A DNA stretch of 64,000 bases, taken from assembly GCF_021044565.1 (NCBI RefSeq), contig NZ_CP087997.1, positions 1,116,001 to 1,180,000 of the forward strand, in the 5' to 3' direction. The DNA is from Subtercola endophyticus. Lineage in GTDB: Bacteria; Actinomycetota; Actinomycetes; Actinomycetales; Microbacteriaceae. Position 1 is the stretch's first letter, and each line of letters starts with the position of its first letter. Position numbers and translations under genes: made by a program. Positions 35,755 through 43,989 of this stretch are shown in pieces. A model generated the notes under the pieces. That model worked only from the letters and a program-made list of their open reading frames with translations, was not told the origin of the DNA and ran no database searches.

Positions 35755-37068
35755 GTGAACTCGCGGCGCTCCTGGCTCATCTTCGGCATCGCCGCGCTCG
35801 CCTACGTGGCCGCCGTTCTGCAACGCTCGACGCTCGGCGTCGCGGGAGTCTCGGCGGCCGATCGGTTTCAAACGTCAGCGGCGATCCTCTCGAGCCTGGC
35901 CGTCGTTCAGCTGATCGTGTACGCCGCGCTGCAGATTCCCAATGGCGTGCTGATCGACAAGCTCGGGCCGCGCTGGCTGGTGATCGTCGGTACCGGCGTG
36001 ATGGTGGCCGGCCAGCTGATTCTGGCCTTCTCACCGACCATCGGGATGGCGATCTTCGGGCGAATTCTCGTCGGGGCGGGGGACTCCGCGATCTTCATCT
36101 CGGTCATCCGCCTGGTGAATTCGTGGTTCTCGGGGCGCATCGTGCCGCAGTTGTCGCAGTGGATGGGCAATATCGGCGCGCTCGGGCAGATTCTCTCCGC
36201 CATTCCGTTCGCTTATGTGCTGCACACGGCCGGGTGGTCTACGGCGTTCACCTCGGCCGCGAGTGTGGCCTTTCTCGCGTTCGTGCTGAGCATCATCGCC
36301 CTGCGCGACCGTCCGGCGTCTGTGATCGCAGCGCCCGCGCCCACGTTTCGCACGGTTCTCGGCCGGCTGGGGCCGACACTGAAACGCCCGGGCACTCGGC
36401 TGGGCTTCTGGTCGCATTTCGTGACGCAGTCGTCGGGCACGGTGTTCAGCCTGTTCTGGGGTTTTCCGTTCATGGTCTCGGCGCTCGGATTCTCGACCGG
36501 GCTCGCCTCGGGCCTGCTGGTGGTGATGGTCATCACGGGACTCATCGCGGGGCCGCTGCTCGGGGTACTCACCGCTCGCTTTCCCACCCGGCGATCGAAC
36601 CTCGTGCTGGCCATCGTCGCGATGCTCGCCATCGTCTGGACCGTGGTTCTGCTCTGGCCCGGCACGCCGCCGCTGTGGATGATCGTGGTGCTCGTTGTGG
36701 CGCTCGGCATCGGCGGCCCGGGCTCCCTCATCGGGTTCGACTTCGCTCGCACCTTCAACCCGCCGCACACCCTCGGTTCGGCGAACGGCGTCGTCAACGT
36801 CGGCGGCTTCACCGCGAGCTTCATCATGATGTTCGTCATCGGCGTGCTGCTGGATGCTCAGCACAACCTGGGCTGGAGCGCGAACCTCTATGACCTGGGA
36901 GCCTTCCGGCTCGCGTTCTGCATTCAGTACGTGGTCATCGGCACCGGAGTCGTCTTCTTACTACGGGCTCGCCGCCGAGCCCGGCAACAACTAGAAGAAG
37001 ACGAGGGAATATCGGTAGCCCCCTTATGGGTTGCACTCAGTGCGGCATGGCAACGAAGAAGGTCTTGA
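35755..37068 (+). CDS. MFS transporter
   Basis: A 437-residue major facilitator superfamily permease with about 12 hydrophobic helices. The N-terminal half has the loop 2-3 signature NGVLIDKLGPRWLVIVGTG (DxxGxR type) and a helix 4 Arg (IFGRILVGAGDSAIFISVIR). The C-terminal half repeats it (LTARFPTRRSNLVLAI). The substrate is unknown; the sequence resembles nitrate/nitrite and organic anion type MFS carriers only generally. GTG start at 35755, overlapping the third 35-bp repeat. Confidence 0.9.
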   Translation: MNSRRSWLIFGIAALAYVAAVLQRSTLGVAGVSAADRFQTSAAILSSLAVVQLIVYAALQIPNGVLIDKLGPRWLVIVGTGVMVAGQLILAFSPTIGMAIFGRILVGAGDSAIFISVIRLVNSWFSGRIVPQLSQWMGNIGALGQILSAIPFAYVLHTAGWSTAFTSAASVAFLAFVLSIIALRDRPASVIAAPAPTFRTVLGRLGPTLKRPGTRLGFWSHFVTQSSGTVFSLFWGFPFMVSALGFSTGLASGLLVVMVITGLIAGPLLGVLTARFPTRRSNLVLAIVAMLAIVWTVVLLWPGTPPLWMIVVLVVALGIGGPGSLIGFDFARTFNPPHTLGSANGVVNVGGFTASFIMMFVIGVLLDAQHNLGWSANLYDLGAFRLAFCIQYVVIGTGVVFLLRARRRARQQLEEDEGISVAPLWVALSAAWQRRRS

Positions 37069-37216: not shown

Positions 37217-37314
37217 AAAACAACTCTGGTTGACCGTGACGCGGGGCGGCGACTGTGCCTCTTTCTCAGTCAGTGCCGCTCGAACGTATCTCTCCCAGTG
37301 TGAAAGGTGATCGT

Positions 37315-38634
37315 ATGGCCACCACAAAGGCTCCAACAGCCAAGACCCCCACCAAGGCGCCCGCCGCGAAGGCGAGCGCAACCAAGAAGACCGCAGCGGC
37401 CGGCAAGGGCCCTGCCACCAAGACGGCCGCCAAGGGCAAAGCCACCGCGAGCAAGGCCAGCGCCGAGCTCGACGGTGACGATGAAGAGGCCGTCGACCTC
37501 GAAGACGTCGTCGACGACGACACTGAGGGCGAAGACGTGCTCGTCGTCGTCGCCGTGCCCGACGATGCCGACAGTACTGAGGCAGTCGCAACCGACGACG
37601 ACACCGACTCCGACGACGACTCGAAGAAGAGTGCTGTCGCCGAAGACCTGCCGACCGGTGCGCTCGTGTTGTCGCTCGTCGACGACGATGACGACGTTCC
37701 CGTCTATTCGAGCGCCATCACCGGTGCGACCGCCGACCCTGTCAAGGACTACCTGAAGCAGATCGGTAAGGTCGCCCTGCTGAACGCGGCCGAAGAGGTC
37801 GAGCTCGCCATGCGCATCGAGGCGGGCCTGTTCGCCGAAGACAAGCTGGCGAACACCGAAGGCATGACGCCCCAGCTGAAGCGTGAGCTGCAGTGGGTGG
37901 CCAAAGACGGTCAGCGTGCGAAGAGCCACCTGCTCGGTGCGAACCTGCGCCTCGTGGTGTCGCTCGCCAAGCGCTACACCGGCCGCGGCATGCAGTTTCT
38001 CGACCTCATCCAAGAGGGCAACCTGGGCCTCATCCGTGCCGTCGAGAAGTTCGACTACACCAAGGGCTTCAAGTTCTCGACCTATGCCACCTGGTGGATT
38101 CGCCAGGCGATCACGCGTGCCATGGCCGACCAGGCCCGCACCATCCGTATTCCGGTGCACATGGTCGAGGTCATCAACAAGCTCGCCCGGGTTCAGCGGC
38201 AGATGCTGCAAGACCTCGGTCGTGAGCCCACGCCAGAAGAACTCTCCCGCGAGCTCGACATGACGCCTGAAAAGGTCGTCGAGGTGCAGAAGTACGGTCG
38301 CGAGCCGATTTCGCTGCACACCCCGCTGGGTGAAGACGGCGACAGCGAGTTCGGTGACCTCATCGAAGACACCGAAGCGGTCGTTCCGGCCGACGCGGTG
38401 GGCTTCACCATGCTGCAGAAGCAGTTGGAGTCGCTGCTGGATTCGCTCTCCGAACGTGAGGCGGGCGTCATCCGCATGCGCTTCGGGCTCGGCGACGGCA
38501 TGCCGAAGACGCTGGACCAGATCGGTGACACGTTCGGCGTGACGCGTGAGCGCATTCGCCAGATCGAGTCGAAGACCATGGCGAAGCTTCGTCACCCGTC
38601 GCGCTCGCAGTCGCTGCGCGACTACCTCGAGTAA
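37315..38634 (+). CDS. sigA: Principal RNA polymerase sigma factor (RpoD/HrdB type)
   Basis: Housekeeping sigma-70 of about 439 residues. The N-terminal 60 residues are Lys/Ala/Thr-rich (histone-like), followed by an acidic stretch, typical of actinobacterial SigA. Region 1.2 is at [21 protein letters not shown], region 2 includes [20 protein letters not shown] and [15 protein letters not shown], and region 4.2 is [18 protein letters not shown] 37315 is chosen because GAAAGGTGAT precedes it; an upstream GTG at 37255 is in frame. MurT follows 4 bp after the stop. Confidence 0.96.
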
Positions 38635-38637
38635 ACC

Positions 38638-39933
38638 TTGGGCGTTCGCACCACGACGGCCGTTCTTGTCGGTCGCGCCGTACGCGTCGCTGCGCGTGCG
38701 CGCGGCGGCGGGTCGGCGATTCCGGGCAACATCGCGCTCAAGATCGATCCCGAGTTTCTGCAGCACAGCATCGCGCGCATTCCGCTCGGTGTGGTCGCGG
38801 TCTCCGGATCGAACGGCAAATCGACCACGACGAACATGCTCGCGGCCATCCTGCGCGAGCACGGCCTGAGGGTTTTCACGAACCCCTCCGGCGGCAACCT
38901 GCCGCAGGGAATCGCGTCGTCGGTACTGGCGTCGGTCTCGGCTTCGGGGGTGCTCGACGCCGACATCGCCATTCTCGAGGTCGACGAGGGGTATGGCCCG
39001 AAGCTCACGAAGATGCTGAAGCCGACGACCGTACTGCTGCTGAACATCCAGATCGACCAGCTGAACCGTTACCACGAGCCCGATCGGGTGGTGCGGATGC
39101 TCGCTGAAGTCGCCAGTACGGCCACGAAGTCGCTCGTGCTGAACCGCGACGACAACCATCTCGTCGACCTCGACTCCAGGCTCGGCGCAGCGTTCACCTC
39201 GTCTCGCGACGTGTCGTTCTTCGGGGCGACGCCTGAGCTCATCGGGGCTTCGGCCCACGGTCTGGCCTCGGCCGACCGGTTCGGAGACGAAGCAGCCGGA
39301 GCAGGCGACCGCGAGGCGGCGGTCACCGTCACCGACCTCGGCGACAGCCAAGCCGTGCTCGGCGTCGACGGAACCGACATCGCTGTTCGCTTGCCCGCCC
39401 GTGGCCTGCACTATGCGCTCGACGCCGCCGGAGCTACCGCCGCCGCTCGTTCGGTACTCGGTGCACGCTTTCGCCCGGGGCTCGTCACTGCCGCCCTCAA
39501 CGGGCTCACCACGGTCTACGGCCGCGGCGAACTGCTGCGGGTCGACGGCGAAGACATCGAGATCATCATGATGAAGAACCCGGCGAGTCTGCAGCTGAAC
39601 CTCGACTCGCTCGAGTCGGCGCCCGAGCAGGTCTTCATGGCGGTCGACGAAGGCACGCCCGATCCGTCGTGGGTGTACGACATCGATCTGTCGAGCCTCG
39701 ACCACGTCGATGTCATCACCGGGTCGAAGGCCTGGCAGTTCGCCGTGCGCTTCGGTTACGCGAACATTCCCGTCGGCACGGTCGATCTCGACGTTCGCGC
39801 CGCCATCAAACAGTTTCTCGCTCTGCCTCGGCCGGCACACGGCCGCAAGACCATGATTCTGAACTATGAGCAGATGATGCTCATTCGTAAGATTCTCGGG
39901 TTCAAAGAACTCGAAGGCGGGGGCAAGGCATGA
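38638..39933 (+). CDS. murT: MurT-like Mur ligase (DUF1727 C-terminus), no zinc ribbon
   Basis: Homologue of the ATP-dependent subunit of lipid II isoglutaminyl synthase, 431 residues. The P-loop SGSNGKSTTTN is at about 56-66, EVDEG at 114-118 and NPAS at 314-317. Two departures are seen. The protein contains no cysteine, so the Cys4 zinc ribbon is missing (its place is about 196-226). The C-terminal catalytic region reads MAVDEGTPDPSWVYD (about 334-348), where canonical MurT has an NDxxADGxDxSW segment. TTG start at 38638, 4 bp after sigA. Its stop overlaps the gatD start (ATGA). The product may not be an amidating enzyme. Confidence 0.85.
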   Translation: MGVRTTTAVLVGRAVRVAARARGGGSAIPGNIALKIDPEFLQHSIARIPLGVVAVSGSNGKSTTTNMLAAILREHGLRVFTNPSGGNLPQGIASSVLASVSASGVLDADIAILEVDEGYGPKLTKMLKPTTVLLLNIQIDQLNRYHEPDRVVRMLAEVASTATKSLVLNRDDNHLVDLDSRLGAAFTSSRDVSFFGATPELIGASAHGLASADRFGDEAAGAGDREAAVTVTDLGDSQAVLGVDGTDIAVRLPARGLHYALDAAGATAAARSVLGARFRPGLVTAALNGLTTVYGRGELLRVDGEDIEIIMMKNPASLQLNLDSLESAPEQVFMAVDEGTPDPSWVYDIDLSSLDHVDVITGSKAWQFAVRFGYANIPVGTVDLDVRAAIKQFLALPRPAHGRKTMILNYEQMMLIRKILGFKELEGGGKA

Positions 39934-40745
39934 GCGAACCACTGCGCATCCTGCACCTGTTCCCGCGCACACTGGGGCTCAACGGCGAAAGCGGAAACGT
40001 CGAGATTCTGCGCCGCAGGGCCGAGTCCCGCGGGCTGACGGTCGAGGTGACTCGGCTCGAAGACGGTGACACCGTTCCTTCGCCGGTCGATCTGGTCTTC
40101 ATCGGCAGCGGTCCCGTCTCTGCGCAGGTGCAGACGCAGGCTGCTGTGCTGGCGGTCGCTCCGGCGCTGCGAGAGCTGGCCTCATCCGGTGTGCCGTTTC
40201 TCGCCGTGGGAGCCGGGTTTCAGTTGCTCGGCACGTCGATCACGCTTGCCGACGGTGCGGCGCTGGTCGGGGCATCCGTTTTTCCGGTGACCACGGTGGT
40301 CGCGGGCGAGCGCGTGGTGGGCGACTTCGTCGTCGAGTCACAGATCGGCACCCTGGTGGGGTTCGAGAACCGTGGTTCGTACCTCGACATCGGCACAGCG
40401 ACGCCCATCGGGCAAGTGGTCTACGGGCGCGGTAACGTCGCGGCCGAGGGCCCCGGTGCCGGTGCGTCGGCGGCGGCGATCGCGGCCTCGGGTGGTACGC
40501 CCGCCTCGGTGGTGCGCGTGGCTCCGGATGCCCGCGTCGAAGGATTCTGGGTCGACAACCTCATCGGCACCCACCTGCACGGGCCGGTTCTCGCGAACAA
40601 CCCGGCCCTCGCCGACTGGCTGCTTTCGGTCGCCCTCGCCCGTCGCGGCGAGACCCTCCCCGCGGCGACGCCCGACCTCGTCGAGATCGACCGCCGCGCC
40701 GCCGAGGCGCGCGCCACCATCGCGGCCGCCCCTCTCTCCGAGTAA
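39930..40745 (+). CDS. gatD: GatD-like class I amidotransferase homologue, nucleophile replaced
   Basis: Partner subunit of MurT, 271 residues. Homology to GatD is clear along the chain: GDFVVESQIGTLVGFENRGS and IGTHLHGPVLANNPALADWL, which keeps the catalytic-type His (about 217). The nucleophile motif is LAVGAGFQLLG; alignment by eye to canonical ICGGYQFLG puts Gly94 at the cysteine (codon 40209-40211). There is no cysteine in the whole protein. A Gly/Ala-rich insert lies at about 170-203. Without the cysteine glutaminase activity is not expected. Coupled to murT by a 4-bp overlap. No frameshift is seen. Confidence 0.85.
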   Translation: MSEPLRILHLFPRTLGLNGESGNVEILRRRAESRGLTVEVTRLEDGDTVPSPVDLVFIGSGPVSAQVQTQAAVLAVAPALRELASSGVPFLAVGAGFQLLGTSITLADGAALVGASVFPVTTVVAGERVVGDFVVESQIGTLVGFENRGSYLDIGTATPIGQVVYGRGNVAAEGPGAGASAAAIAASGGTPASVVRVAPDARVEGFWVDNLIGTHLHGPVLANNPALADWLLSVALARRGETLPAATPDLVEIDRRAAEARATIAAAPLSE

Positions 40746-40923: not shown

Positions 40924-41538
40924 TCAGGCGGGGGAGGCGCGCACGTGCATCCGCTCGCCCTGGGGGCCGAAGAGGCTCAGAAACTCGACGGGCTCGGTGC
41001 CGGCGCGGCCGAACCAGTGCGGGATGTCGGTGGCGAACTCCGCCACTTCGCCGGCGGCGAGCAGCAGGTCGTGCTCGCCGAGAACGAGGCGCAGCGATCC
41101 CTTGAGCACGTAGACCCACTCGTGGCCGGGGTGCGTTCGCGGCACCGGATCGCCCTGCGGCGCAGAAGCGGGAATGATGTGCTTGAACGCCTGAACCCCG
41201 GTCGCTCCACGGCTGAGCGGCAGAATCGTCTGCCCGTGGCGCCGCAGCGGACGGATGTGGATGCGCGGGTCTCCCGTCGCCGGAGCCCCGACCAGCTCAT
41301 CGAGCGGAACGCCGTACTCTCGCGCCAAGGGCAGCAGCAACTCGAGCGTCGCACGGCGCTGGCCCGACTCGAGCCGGCTCAGCGTGCTGACCGACATTCC
41401 CGCGTTCTGCGCCACCTCGGCGAGGCTGCGCTGCCGCGCGGTTCGCAGGGCCCGAAGTCGCGGCCCGACGGCATGCAACACAGCGTTGAGATCGCTGTTT
41501 TCGGCGGAGATGTCGCCGGAACCCTCGCTATGCTTCAT
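40924..41538 (-). CDS. XRE-type regulator with cupin domain
   Basis: A DNA-binding regulator of about 204 residues: an N-terminal helix-turn-helix (LRTARQRSLAEVAQNAGMSV and LSRLESGQRRATLELLLPLA, residues about 28-70) and a C-terminal cupin (THPGHEWVYVLKGSLRLVLG and AEFATDIPHWFG). Such proteins often sense small molecules, metals or amino acids. The start is set at ATG 41538; ATG 41562 is an alternative. An inverted repeat CAGCAA-n6-TTGCTG lies 19-36 bp upstream and may be its own operator. Confidence 0.87.
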   Translation of the reverse strand: MKHSEGSGDISAENSDLNAVLHAVGPRLRALRTARQRSLAEVAQNAGMSVSTLSRLESGQRRATLELLLPLAREYGVPLDELVGAPATGDPRIHIRPLRRHGQTILPLSRGATGVQAFKHIIPASAPQGDPVPRTHPGHEWVYVLKGSLRLVLGEHDLLLAAGEVAEFATDIPHWFGRAGTEPVEFLSLFGPQGERMHVRASPA

Positions 41539-41556
41539 GCCGTTATCTTGCCAGAG

Positions 41557-41574
41557 CAGCAAACGACATTGCTG
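41557..41574. promoter_or_regulatory. Candidate autoregulatory operator of the cupin regulator
   Basis: CAGCAA-ACGACA-TTGCTG, perfect 6-bp arms, 19-36 bp upstream of the preferred start. This is the usual position for autorepression. Inference only. Confidence 0.35.
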
Positions 41575-41673: not shown

Positions 41674-43761
41674 TCAGGTGTCGATACGATCAGCACTGAG
41701 GCTCGCGCCGCCGGCGATGATGAACTCCTTGCGCGGCGCGACGTCGTCACCCATGAGCAGCTCGAAGGTGCGCTCGGCGAGCTGGGCGTCAGAGACGCGT
41801 ACGCGGCGCAGCATGCGGTGCCGCTTGTCCATGGTGGTGAGAGCGAGCTGGTCGGCATCCATCTCGCCGAGGCCCTTGTAGCGCTGAATCGGGTCTTGGT
41901 ACTTCTTGTTCGACTTCTTGAGCCCGGCCAGCACGCCGTTGAGCTCGGTCTCCGAGTAGGTGTAGATCGTCTCGTTCGGCTTGGTGCCGGGGTTCATCAC
42001 CACGACCCGGTGCAGCGGTGGCACGGCGGCGAACACGCGCCCGGCGTCGATCATCGGCCTCATGTAACGGAAGAACAGCGTGAGCAGCAGCGTGCGGATG
42101 TGCGCGCCATCGACATCGGCGTCGCTCATCAGAATGATCTTGCCGTACCGGGCGGTATCGATATCGAACGAGCGGCCCGACCCGGCCCCGAGCACCTGGA
42201 TGATCGACGCGCACTCGGCGTTCGACAACATGTCGGCGACCGACGCCTTCTGCACGTTCAGAATCTTGCCGCGAATGGGCAGCAGCGCCTGGAACTCGCT
42301 GTTGCGCGCGAGCTTCGCCGTGCCGAGCGCGGAGTCACCCTCCACGATGAACAGCTCACTCGACACGACGTCGCTCGAGCGGCAGTCGACGAGCTTCGCC
42401 GGCAGCGACGAGCTTTCGAGCGCATTCTTGCGGCGCTGCGTCTCTTTGTGCGCACGGGCCGAGATACGCGACTTCATCTCGGCGACGACCTTGTCGAGCA
42501 CCAATGCGGTCTGCGTCTTGTCGTCGCGCTTGCTCGAGGCGAATCGTTCGCCGAGAGCCTTGGTCACGACGCTCGTCACGATGTTGCGCACGGCCGGGGT
42601 GCCCAAGATCTCTTTGGTCTGCCCCTCGAACTGCGGCTCGGGCAGCCGTACCGTGAGAACCGCGGTAAGCCCGGCCAGCACGTCTTCTTTGTCGAGCTTG
42701 TCGTTGCCGACCTTCAGCCGGCGGGCGTTGTCTTCGACGGTCTTGCGCAGAAAACGCAGCAGCCCGGCCTCGAAGCCGGCGAGGTGCGTGCCGCCCTTCG
42801 GCGTGGAGATGATGTTGACGAAGGTCTTCACCTCGGTGTCGTAGCCGGTTCCCCAGCGCAGGGCGATGTCTACCGCGCAGTCGCGCGTGAGCTCGGTGGG
42901 CACCATGGCGCCCGCGTCGCTCAGCACGGGAACGGTCTCGGTGAAGGTGCCATCACCTTGCAGACGCCAGGTCTCGGTCAACGGGGCATCCGGTGCCAGA
43001 AAATCGACGAACTCGGCAAGCCCTCCTTCGTAGGAGAACGACTCGTGCTGCGTTTCTTCGCCCCGGGCATCCGTGATGTCGAGCTGCAGGCCCGACACGA
43101 GAAAGGCCGTCTGGCGGGCGCGGTCGACGAGTTCATCCGTCTGAAACTGCGTCGACTCGGTGAAGATCTGCGGGTCGGCCCAGTAGCGGATGCGCGTGCC
43201 GGTCACGGTGCGGCCCACCTTGCCGACCACCCGCAGCTCGCTGGTGTTCTCGAAGGGAGTGAATTTCGACGACGGCGACGGGTTCTTCGGGTTGACGTCG
43301 TCGAAGTTTCCCGGCTCGCCGCGGTGGAACGACATCGCCCAGGTCTTGCCGTCACGGTCGACTTCGACGTCGAGCCGCTCGCTCAGGGCGTTCACGACCG
43401 AGGCGCCGACGCCGTGCAGGCCACCGGATGCGGCGTACGACCCCGAACCGAACTTGCCACCCGCATGCAGTTTGGTGAACACGACCTCGACGCCGGTGAG
43501 GCCGGTGCGCGGCTCGATGTCGACCGGGATGCCCCGGGCGCGATCGCGCACTTCGACGCTGTTGTCGGGGTGCAGGATGATCGAGATCTCGTCGCCGTGA
43601 CCACCGAGCGCCTCGTCGACCGAGTTGTCGATGATCTCCCAGAGGCAGTGCATGAGCCCCTTGGGGCCCGTGGAGCCGATGTACATTCCCGGGCGCTTGC
43701 GAACAGCTTCGAGGCCCTCCAGAACCGAGAGGTGTCTGGCCGAATAATCGGAGGATGCCAC
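41674..43761 (-). CDS. parE: DNA topoisomerase IV subunit B
   Basis: ATPase subunit of a type IIA topoisomerase, about 695 residues. GHKL ATPase motifs include EIIDNSVDEAL, RARGIPVDI and GGLHGVGASVVNALS. The TOPRIM domain has FIVEGDSALGTAK and LMSDADVDGAHIRTLLL. The start is GTG at 43761 with a strong AAGGAG upstream; ATG 43821 is in frame but lacks such a site. parC follows across a small zinc-protein gene. That GyrA-box is absent from the partner supports ParE/ParC rather than gyrase. Confidence 0.93.
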   Translation of the reverse strand: MASSDYSARHLSVLEGLEAVRKRPGMYIGSTGPKGLMHCLWEIIDNSVDEALGGHGDEISIILHPDNSVEVRDRARGIPVDIEPRTGLTGVEVVFTKLHAGGKFGSGSYAASGGLHGVGASVVNALSERLDVEVDRDGKTWAMSFHRGEPGNFDDVNPKNPSPSSKFTPFENTSELRVVGKVGRTVTGTRIRYWADPQIFTESTQFQTDELVDRARQTAFLVSGLQLDITDARGEETQHESFSYEGGLAEFVDFLAPDAPLTETWRLQGDGTFTETVPVLSDAGAMVPTELTRDCAVDIALRWGTGYDTEVKTFVNIISTPKGGTHLAGFEAGLLRFLRKTVEDNARRLKVGNDKLDKEDVLAGLTAVLTVRLPEPQFEGQTKEILGTPAVRNIVTSVVTKALGERFASSKRDDKTQTALVLDKVVAEMKSRISARAHKETQRRKNALESSSLPAKLVDCRSSDVVSSELFIVEGDSALGTAKLARNSEFQALLPIRGKILNVQKASVADMLSNAECASIIQVLGAGSGRSFDIDTARYGKIILMSDADVDGAHIRTLLLTLFFRYMRPMIDAGRVFAAVPPLHRVVVMNPGTKPNETIYTYSETELNGVLAGLKKSNKKYQDPIQRYKGLGEMDADQLALTTMDKRHRMLRRVRVSDAQLAERTFELLMGDDVAPRKEFIIAGGASLSADRIDT

Positions 43762-43989
43762 AGAGTTCTCCTTGTGAGGTGGTGCGGAAAGGCGCAGGGG
43801 CGGGCTGGGGATCCCGTCCAACGTCTAAGACTACGTTCCGGCACCGACACCGAGCCGCTTCGACACGTCAGACCAATCCGCTCGTACGCGCACAGCGAAA
43901 CACAGGGGAATGTAACGTAGAGGGAACATAGTCATGCTTGAATCGGTTACACAGATTGTCTGAGGTACGAACCCGTGAGGAGCCATAAG

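Follow-up and report, generated by a model that had tools for sequence, protein, structure and literature searches.

MurT and GatD together form the lipid II isoglutaminyl synthase, an enzyme encoded by two overlapping genes and represented in the Protein Data Bank (PDB) by complexes from Staphylococcus aureus (6gs2, 6h5e, 7q8e), Streptococcus pneumoniae (6fqb), and Streptococcus pyogenes (9sq9, 9sqj). In the canonical enzyme, MurT binds ATP and turns the alpha-carboxyl of D-Glu into an acyl phosphate, and GatD produces the ammonia that amidates it, using a catalytic Cys. Here, we describe a MurT/GatD pair in a 64,000-nucleotide stretch of the Subtercola endophyticus genome (contig NZ_CP087997.1, positions 1,116,001 to 1,180,000; "the window" below means this whole stretch). 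In this pair and its relatives, the glutaminase Cys, the Tyr of the ammonia gate, and the DNAAD-type loop of MurT are changed together, and the ATP site and Asp are kept. We consider it reasonably probable that the pair is a neofunctionalized MurT/GatD that attaches an amino acid to peptidoglycan precursors.

Published biochemistry of the S. aureus enzyme provides a precedent. Replacement of the GatD nucleophile (C94G) abolished glutamine-dependent amidation and left ammonia-dependent amidation, with free ammonia at pH 8.5, in place (PMC3266927). In the same study, MurT stood in for MurE during in vitro pentapeptide synthesis, which its authors took to mean that MurT binds L-Lys and activates the D-Glu carboxylate (PMC3266927). 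Taken together, these two behaviors suggest that MurT freed from its glutaminase can take another amine.

One candidate destination for such an amine is the cross-bridge of group B peptidoglycan, a wall type that has served as a classification mark for decades and whose bridge starts on the same D-Glu carboxyl. The accessible open-licence literature yielded no enzyme assigned to the first bond of this bridge.

A MurT/GatD pair without the glutaminase nucleophile

The window pair forms one tight run with sigA: MurT begins 4 bases past the stop codon of sigA and shares the 4 bases ATGA (39930-39933) with GatD, and both frames are open. The pair has the following features.

38638..39933, plus strand: MurT homologue, 431 aa, TTG start, no Cys (Pfam, AlphaFold2, Foldseek)
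38806..38832, plus strand: MurT P-loop GSNGKSTTT, residues 57-65, intact (by motif; canonical family rows mostly have GTNGKTTTT)
39403..39423, plus strand: MurT GLHYALD, residues 256-262, a GxHYxxD-type motif (by alignment)
39640..39672, plus strand: MurT loop AVDEGTPDPSW, residues 335-345, Asp342 kept
39930..40745, plus strand: GatD homologue, 271 aa, no nucleophile (GATase_3, AlphaFold2, Foldseek)
39981..39983, plus strand: GatD Asn18, where canonical GatD has the ammonia-gate Tyr (by alignment)
40209..40211, plus strand: GatD Gly94 (GGA), where canonical GatD has the catalytic Cys (by codon and alignment)
40578..40580, plus strand: GatD His217 (THLHGP), retained counterpart of the catalytic His (by alignment)

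An earlier note on this DNA had claimed that Gly replaces the catalytic Cys at 40209-40211, that two intact frames overlapping by 4 bases encode proteins without any Cys, and that the C-terminal catalytic segment of MurT is altered. All of this holds: the codon is GGA, the Cys count is 0 in MurT and 0 in GatD, and the DNAAD-type loop has 11 residues versus 14.

Domain content, fold, and P-loop all resemble those of the lipid II isoglutaminyl synthase. Pfam finds Mur_ligase_M and MurT_C in MurT (45.1 and 33 bits; cut-offs 24 and 25) and GATase_3 in GatD, and sequence comparison with the PDB puts the pair nearest to the MurT/GatD complexes of S. aureus and streptococci. AlphaFold2 models of MurT (mean pLDDT 90.1) and GatD (mean pLDDT 90.3) have 7q8e_A and 6gs2_A, respectively, as top Foldseek matches by E-value. 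The window pair also keeps GatD His217 and its partner, MurT Asp342. Unlike the synthase, however, it has no Cys nucleophile, its gate Tyr is replaced, and its MurT loop is three residues shorter; its scores fall far below the NCBIfam equivalog cut-offs of MurT/GatD (114.6 against 800, 110 against 800, 114 against 450, and 75.3 against 400). Since the Cys is missing, the pair falls outside the known type of isoglutaminyl synthase, and the most fitting name, judged from its sequence, is a glutaminase-dead MurT/GatD variant. Compared with MurC to MurF and archaeal pMurC/pMurE, the window MurT is, like MurT, shorter than most and has a GatD partner, with identities of ~15 to 22%; in VIA-align, cyanophycin synthetase, MurC, MurF, and MurT ranked no more than about 1.5 Z apart, which gave no choice among them.

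The earlier note had considered that a second, canonical pair might do all the work. PF08353 (MurT_C) matched once in a profile search of the whole source genome (one contig, 4.3 Mb, 98% complete), and there was no other match to this model, which misses the MurT of Leifsonia ALI-44-B and of Okibacterium, both of which are found by the MurT profile.

Distribution and origin of the Cys-less form

A MurT profile matched 199 of 199 genomes of the family Microbacteriaceae, some at only ~1e-10, which we read as other Mur ligases. Eighty family stretches were picked among the matches listed, about one or more per genus, and the weaker-matching genomes were sampled through 20 sigA stretches. First-look candidates were scored per genome (8 in the family scan and 6 in the scan outside it), and 11 smaller loci were dropped because the same genome had been refetched as a longer stretch. 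The resulting 98 family GatD rows include neither congener loci nor locus L128, which had no GatD row.

At the nucleophile position, these 98 rows have Gly (59), Ala (16), Ser (6), Thr (2), Asn (2), or Cys (13). Cys-less GatD thus accounts for 85 rows from 83 genomes and 58 genera, and Cys-containing GatD for 13 rows from 13 genomes and 12 genera. Ten of 11 congeners of the window species gave a match, all 10 with Gly at this position. With Gly in 10 congeners and a residue other than Cys in 85 of 98 family rows, the change is neither chance nor a sequencing error, the latter being a possibility raised in the earlier note. Among the best 80 organism-named loci, 36 have MurT/GatD in the slot beside sigA, and Cys is present in 0 of these 36 (Gly in 30, Ala in 4, Asn in 1, and Gln in 1).

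Outside the family, we sampled 20 of 91 matched genomes, mostly the best-scoring, plus 4 others. Both Cys and His were present in all 24 GatDs, leaving 0 Cys-less homologues among the 24 sampled genes, so that the Cys-less form is confined to one family among those sampled. A profile of the Cys-less form gave 382.7 bits for the best outside MurT and 468.5 bits for the lowest family match among the matches listed.

In a tree of 106 MurT sequences, which was a quick search with no bootstrap and in which the window is included twice, some species appear under two loci, and L128 lacks a GatD row, the 67 noncanonical rows group in a single clade (SH-aLRT 100, stem 0.58). A distant second MurT type, which we call type III, lies elsewhere in the tree (represented by L164). 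The six type III GatDs examined (L145, L146, L159, L160, L026, and L164) lack both Cys and His and occupy the same sigA slot. Because type III stands at the same slot and outside the main clade, the glutaminase was lost at least twice there.

Cys-less and canonical pairs occur together in three family genomes (G079, G186, and G091) and in Leifsonia aquatica. Extra Cys-less MurT/GatD copies lie away from sigA in genomes G146 (L102) and G182 (L114), with the motifs RTAN and KSP; in both genomes, another Cys-less copy stands at sigA.

The pair could also be on its way out, surviving as an inactive remnant or only for regulation. Its glutaminase is dead by sequence, and a few reduced genomes (L025, L128) have a shortened or undetected GatD. 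Against decay stand the intact P-loop, a place conserved across many genera, and dN/dS values versus the 10 congeners of 0.12 to 0.25 for GatD and 0.05 to 0.21 for MurT. A range of 0.05 to 0.25 indicates purifying selection on both proteins, in agreement with the view in the earlier note that selection had preserved them, and we regard a remnant as very improbable.

Residues that change together

We compared 121 Cys-less rows, which combine two overlapping locus sets, with 41 canonical rows. In the gate-Tyr column (S. pneumoniae Tyr30, discussed as a channel plug in PMC6085368), all 41 canonical rows have Tyr and none of the 121 Cys-less rows does. In S. aureus, one loop of MurT contains DNAAD, for which stem-peptide binding was proposed (PMC6113224); this loop is 14 residues long in all 41 canonical rows and 11 residues long in 120 of 121 Cys-less rows. 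A third change affects a GxYNxxN-type motif of MurT, which becomes GxHYxxD-type: His is present in 120 of 121 Cys-less rows versus 5 of 41 canonical rows, and the last position is Asp in 116 of 121 Cys-less rows and Asn in 40 of 41 canonical rows. MurT Asp342, the partner of the GatD His, is retained in 120 of 121 Cys-less rows, and the catalytic His of GatD is missing in 33 of the 85 Cys-less family rows.

These changes bear on an alternative in which the pair still amidates D-Glu, drawing on free cytoplasmic ammonia or on another glutaminase, and GatD only holds the shape of MurT. The conserved P-loop and Asp of MurT are compatible with this, as is the use of ammonia at pH 8.5 by S. aureus MurT with GatD C94G (PMC3266927). 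Yet amidation with free ammonia leaves unexplained the joint change of MurT loop, gate Tyr, and Mur active-site motif, as well as the retention of a canonical pair in some genomes. We return to this alternative below.

The slot beside sigA holds one of two ligases

Three genes define the setting of the pair in the window.

35755..37068, plus strand: MFS transporter, upstream of sigA; the same neighbor is found in many relatives examined
37255..38634, plus strand: sigA, principal sigma factor; the slot gene comes next
41674..43821, minus strand: parE/gyrB-type gene closing the sigA-parE interval (its homologue in L161 is classed by NCBIfam)

Among the fetched family loci, sigA lies beside murT in 65 of 67 noncanonical loci, the other two being the extra copies L102 and L114, and in none of the 13 canonical loci. 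In many cases a few bases separate the two genes; Pseudoclavibacter has a larger spacing (~0.5 kb), and so does Naasia (~1 kb). Across 165 sigA loci, which are partly nonindependent since two locus sets share genomes (e.g., Agreia L064/L166), the slot holds murT in 105, a relative of the F420_ligase family (PF01996, the CofE/FbiB F420-0:glutamate ligase family) in 35, neither in 25, and both in 0. The two ligases belong to different Pfam families. The F420_ligase relative fills the slot in 17 of 19 Microbacterium loci, Salinibacterium xinjiangense and NG253, Pseudolysinimonas, Yonghaparkia, Gulosibacter, and Microcella alkaliphila; the Cys-less pair takes its place in Microbacterium aurantiacum and RH59, in Salinibacterium soli, and in Microcella putealis. 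Loci L196 (in a record titled Stenotrophomonas maltophilia) and L223 (Aeromicrobium) have sigA ends 97% and 93% identical to that of the window and probably come from mislabelled or contaminated contigs.

The slot F420_ligase is far from true CofE, scoring 31 to 35 bits against a cut-off of 180.65 in two examples. We did not take this match as evidence of an F420 function at the slot, because the genomes have strong FbiB-like matches in other places. Among 31 named genomes and the source genome, the weak, slot-type F420_ligase and MurT_C occurred together in 0 cases. A separate strong F420_ligase match (~1e-50) was found in 19 of these 32 genomes, including the source genome and members of both slot groups; Curtobacterium pusillum, two Leifsonia, and Pseudoclavibacter terrae, all with the Cys-less pair, have no F420_ligase match. 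Brevibacterium ravenspurgense has a weak, unplaced one.

Racemase and ATP-grasp genes in the sigA-parE interval

Neighbors were counted in the 152 loci that hold sigA together with parE, again with some genomes shared between locus sets. The interval includes an Alr-type racemase in 37 of 96 MurT loci, 21 of 33 F420_ligase-type loci, and 1 of 23 others, and an ATP-grasp gene in 3 of 96, 29 of 33, and 0 of 23, respectively. Example neighbors carry the Pfam domains ATPgrasp_ST and Ala_racemase. Both racemase loci tested encode one full-length Alr-type protein and one short protein, mainly the C-terminal domain, which could possibly form a two-subunit racemase for D-Orn, D-Dab, or D-Lys. In L195 (12440-15273) and L062 (8071-9854), such a pair stands between the slot and parE on the opposite strand.

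The window's own interval (L135) contains no racemase; an XRE/cupin-type regulator (40924-41562, minus strand) separates gatD from parE, at a position that racemases take in many relatives. The source genome has two adjacent Alr-type genes at G000:C1:147347-149010, and similar adjacent pairs are present in Herbiconiux and Curtobacterium genomes. A diaminobutyrate transaminase is joined to the F420_ligase-type slot in three loci (L143, 1334-3394, EctB-type; L195, 10229-12351; and L150). As a general slot partner it was rejected, matching at E 1e-100 in 4 of 30 genomes.

Exchange of MurT and the F420_ligase relative in one slot suggests that both ligases do similar jobs. MurT, FolC, and CofE are all glutamate-type ligases, and the slot might accordingly form an amide away from peptidoglycan, such as the poly-glutamyl tails of F420 or folate. 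However, the separate strong F420_ligase in 19 of 32 genomes, the source genome among them, the four Cys-less genomes without any such match, and the adjoining racemases and ATP-grasp genes, which better fit D-amino-acid wall chemistry, make tail synthesis a quite unlikely role.

A candidate enzyme for the first bond of the group B bridge

The best reading of the slot is that it encodes a ligase that would put the first bridge amino acid on the alpha-carboxyl of D-Glu. Loss of the glutaminase across much of the family, in a gene of fixed position, suggests that the pair probably attaches this residue. MurT would bind ATP and activate the carboxyl through its conserved sites, as the canonical enzyme does; GatD, which by its sequence no longer produces ammonia, would stay as a structural partner with the gate Tyr gone; and a free amino acid, most likely D-Dab or D-Orn, would attack in place of ammonia to give a one-residue bridge. 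Relatives with Gly-containing bridges have an F420_ligase-type ligase and an ATP-grasp protein at the same place, where the two may perform the corresponding step. That the ATP-grasp gene accompanies the F420_ligase form and seldom MurT fits two bonds versus one.

Bridges of Curtobacterium, Rathayibacter, and Clavibacter consist of a single D-Orn or D-Dab, and those of Microbacterium of Gly-Lys or Gly-Orn. Group B walls with Dab or Orn are described for Herbiconiux, Cryobacterium, Glaciihabitans, Agreia, and Agromyces, genera that have Cys-less slots, and Herbiconiux, a relative of the window species, is B2gamma with D- and L-Dab (PMC10011130). Compositions from three strains outside the slot survey, a Subtercola (Gly 1.0 to Dab 1.7; PMC5945732), a Rhodoluna (Gly 0.9 to Glu 1.0; PMC4156110), and a Microbacterium (Gly 3.5 to Orn 1.0; PMC10978784), match a one- and two-residue scheme in part.

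A wider and more tentative model, which we hold with slightly less than even confidence, is that the sigA-parE interval is an unrecognized group B cross-bridge cassette. In it, the glutaminase-dead MurT-GatD, having arisen at least twice, would make the one-residue D-Dab or D-Orn bridge, the F420_ligase-type ligase with the sugar-transfer-type ATP-grasp protein would make the two-residue Gly-diamino bridge, and the full-length and short Alr-type racemases would supply the D-amino acid. If true, this would name candidate genes for the group B bridge, account for the conversion of a glutamine amidotransferase into an amino-acid ligase by the loss of one residue and a gate, make wall type predictable from a single gene slot, and offer a wall-specific step to study in a family that includes plant pathogens.

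Several observations weigh against the bridge-ligase reading. Microbacteriaceae are almost uniformly group B (PMC10978784), and the wall-type correlation is therefore nearly equivalent to taxonomy. Salinibacterium has both slot types within one genus. The 25 of 165 sigA loci with neither ligase comprise six family genomes (one of which, L148, stops at a contig end), three Leucobacter, and a remainder mostly bearing the names of other groups. Leucobacter chironomi has a B-type wall with Dab (PMC4511665), and Leucobacter has an empty slot in 3 of 3 named loci and a canonical Cys pair elsewhere (L211, L217, L227, and L246-L248). Lacisediminihabitans, which is outside the slot survey, is listed as B1alpha with Dab (PMC7033078) and misfits the one- and two-residue split. 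The racemases are similarly uneven: the interval holds one in 0 of 36 loci called STAN-motif subtype, a simple-motif call that mis-sorted four Curtobacterium loci into that set, and Rathayibacter, Galbitalea, Naasia, and Ruicaihuangia have one Alr_C match per genome, so that a source of the D-amino acid was not found there. The low count of diaminobutyrate transaminase matches and the ammonia use of S. aureus C94G, both given above, count on the same side.

The earlier note's proposal that an amino acid is coupled instead of ammonia thus gains from the amide ligase that shares the slot, from the racemases, and from the published C94G and MurT behavior. Its extension to all group B walls fails, given the empty slot of Leucobacter and the other ligase in 17 of 19 Microbacterium, and amidation with free ammonia keeps a minor share of our belief. 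The latter would also leave unexplained why an F420_ligase-type ligase, ATP-grasp, and racemases occur in the same slot, and the group B bridge takes the very carboxyl that it would amidate. We therefore judge free ammonia unlikely, and an amino-acid ligase remains our preferred account of the pair.

The zinc ribbon of MurT

The earlier note had also pointed to loss of the Cys4 zinc ribbon. The window MurT indeed has no Cys; the loss is not specific, as CxxC is present in 0 of 13 canonical MurTs in the table of fetched family loci. We therefore rejected ribbon loss as a sign of new function. Type III MurTs, whose GatDs are Cys-less, have the full CxxC-CxxC in 4 of 6 cases and part of it in a fifth, and so loss of the ribbon and loss of the glutaminase Cys are unlinked.
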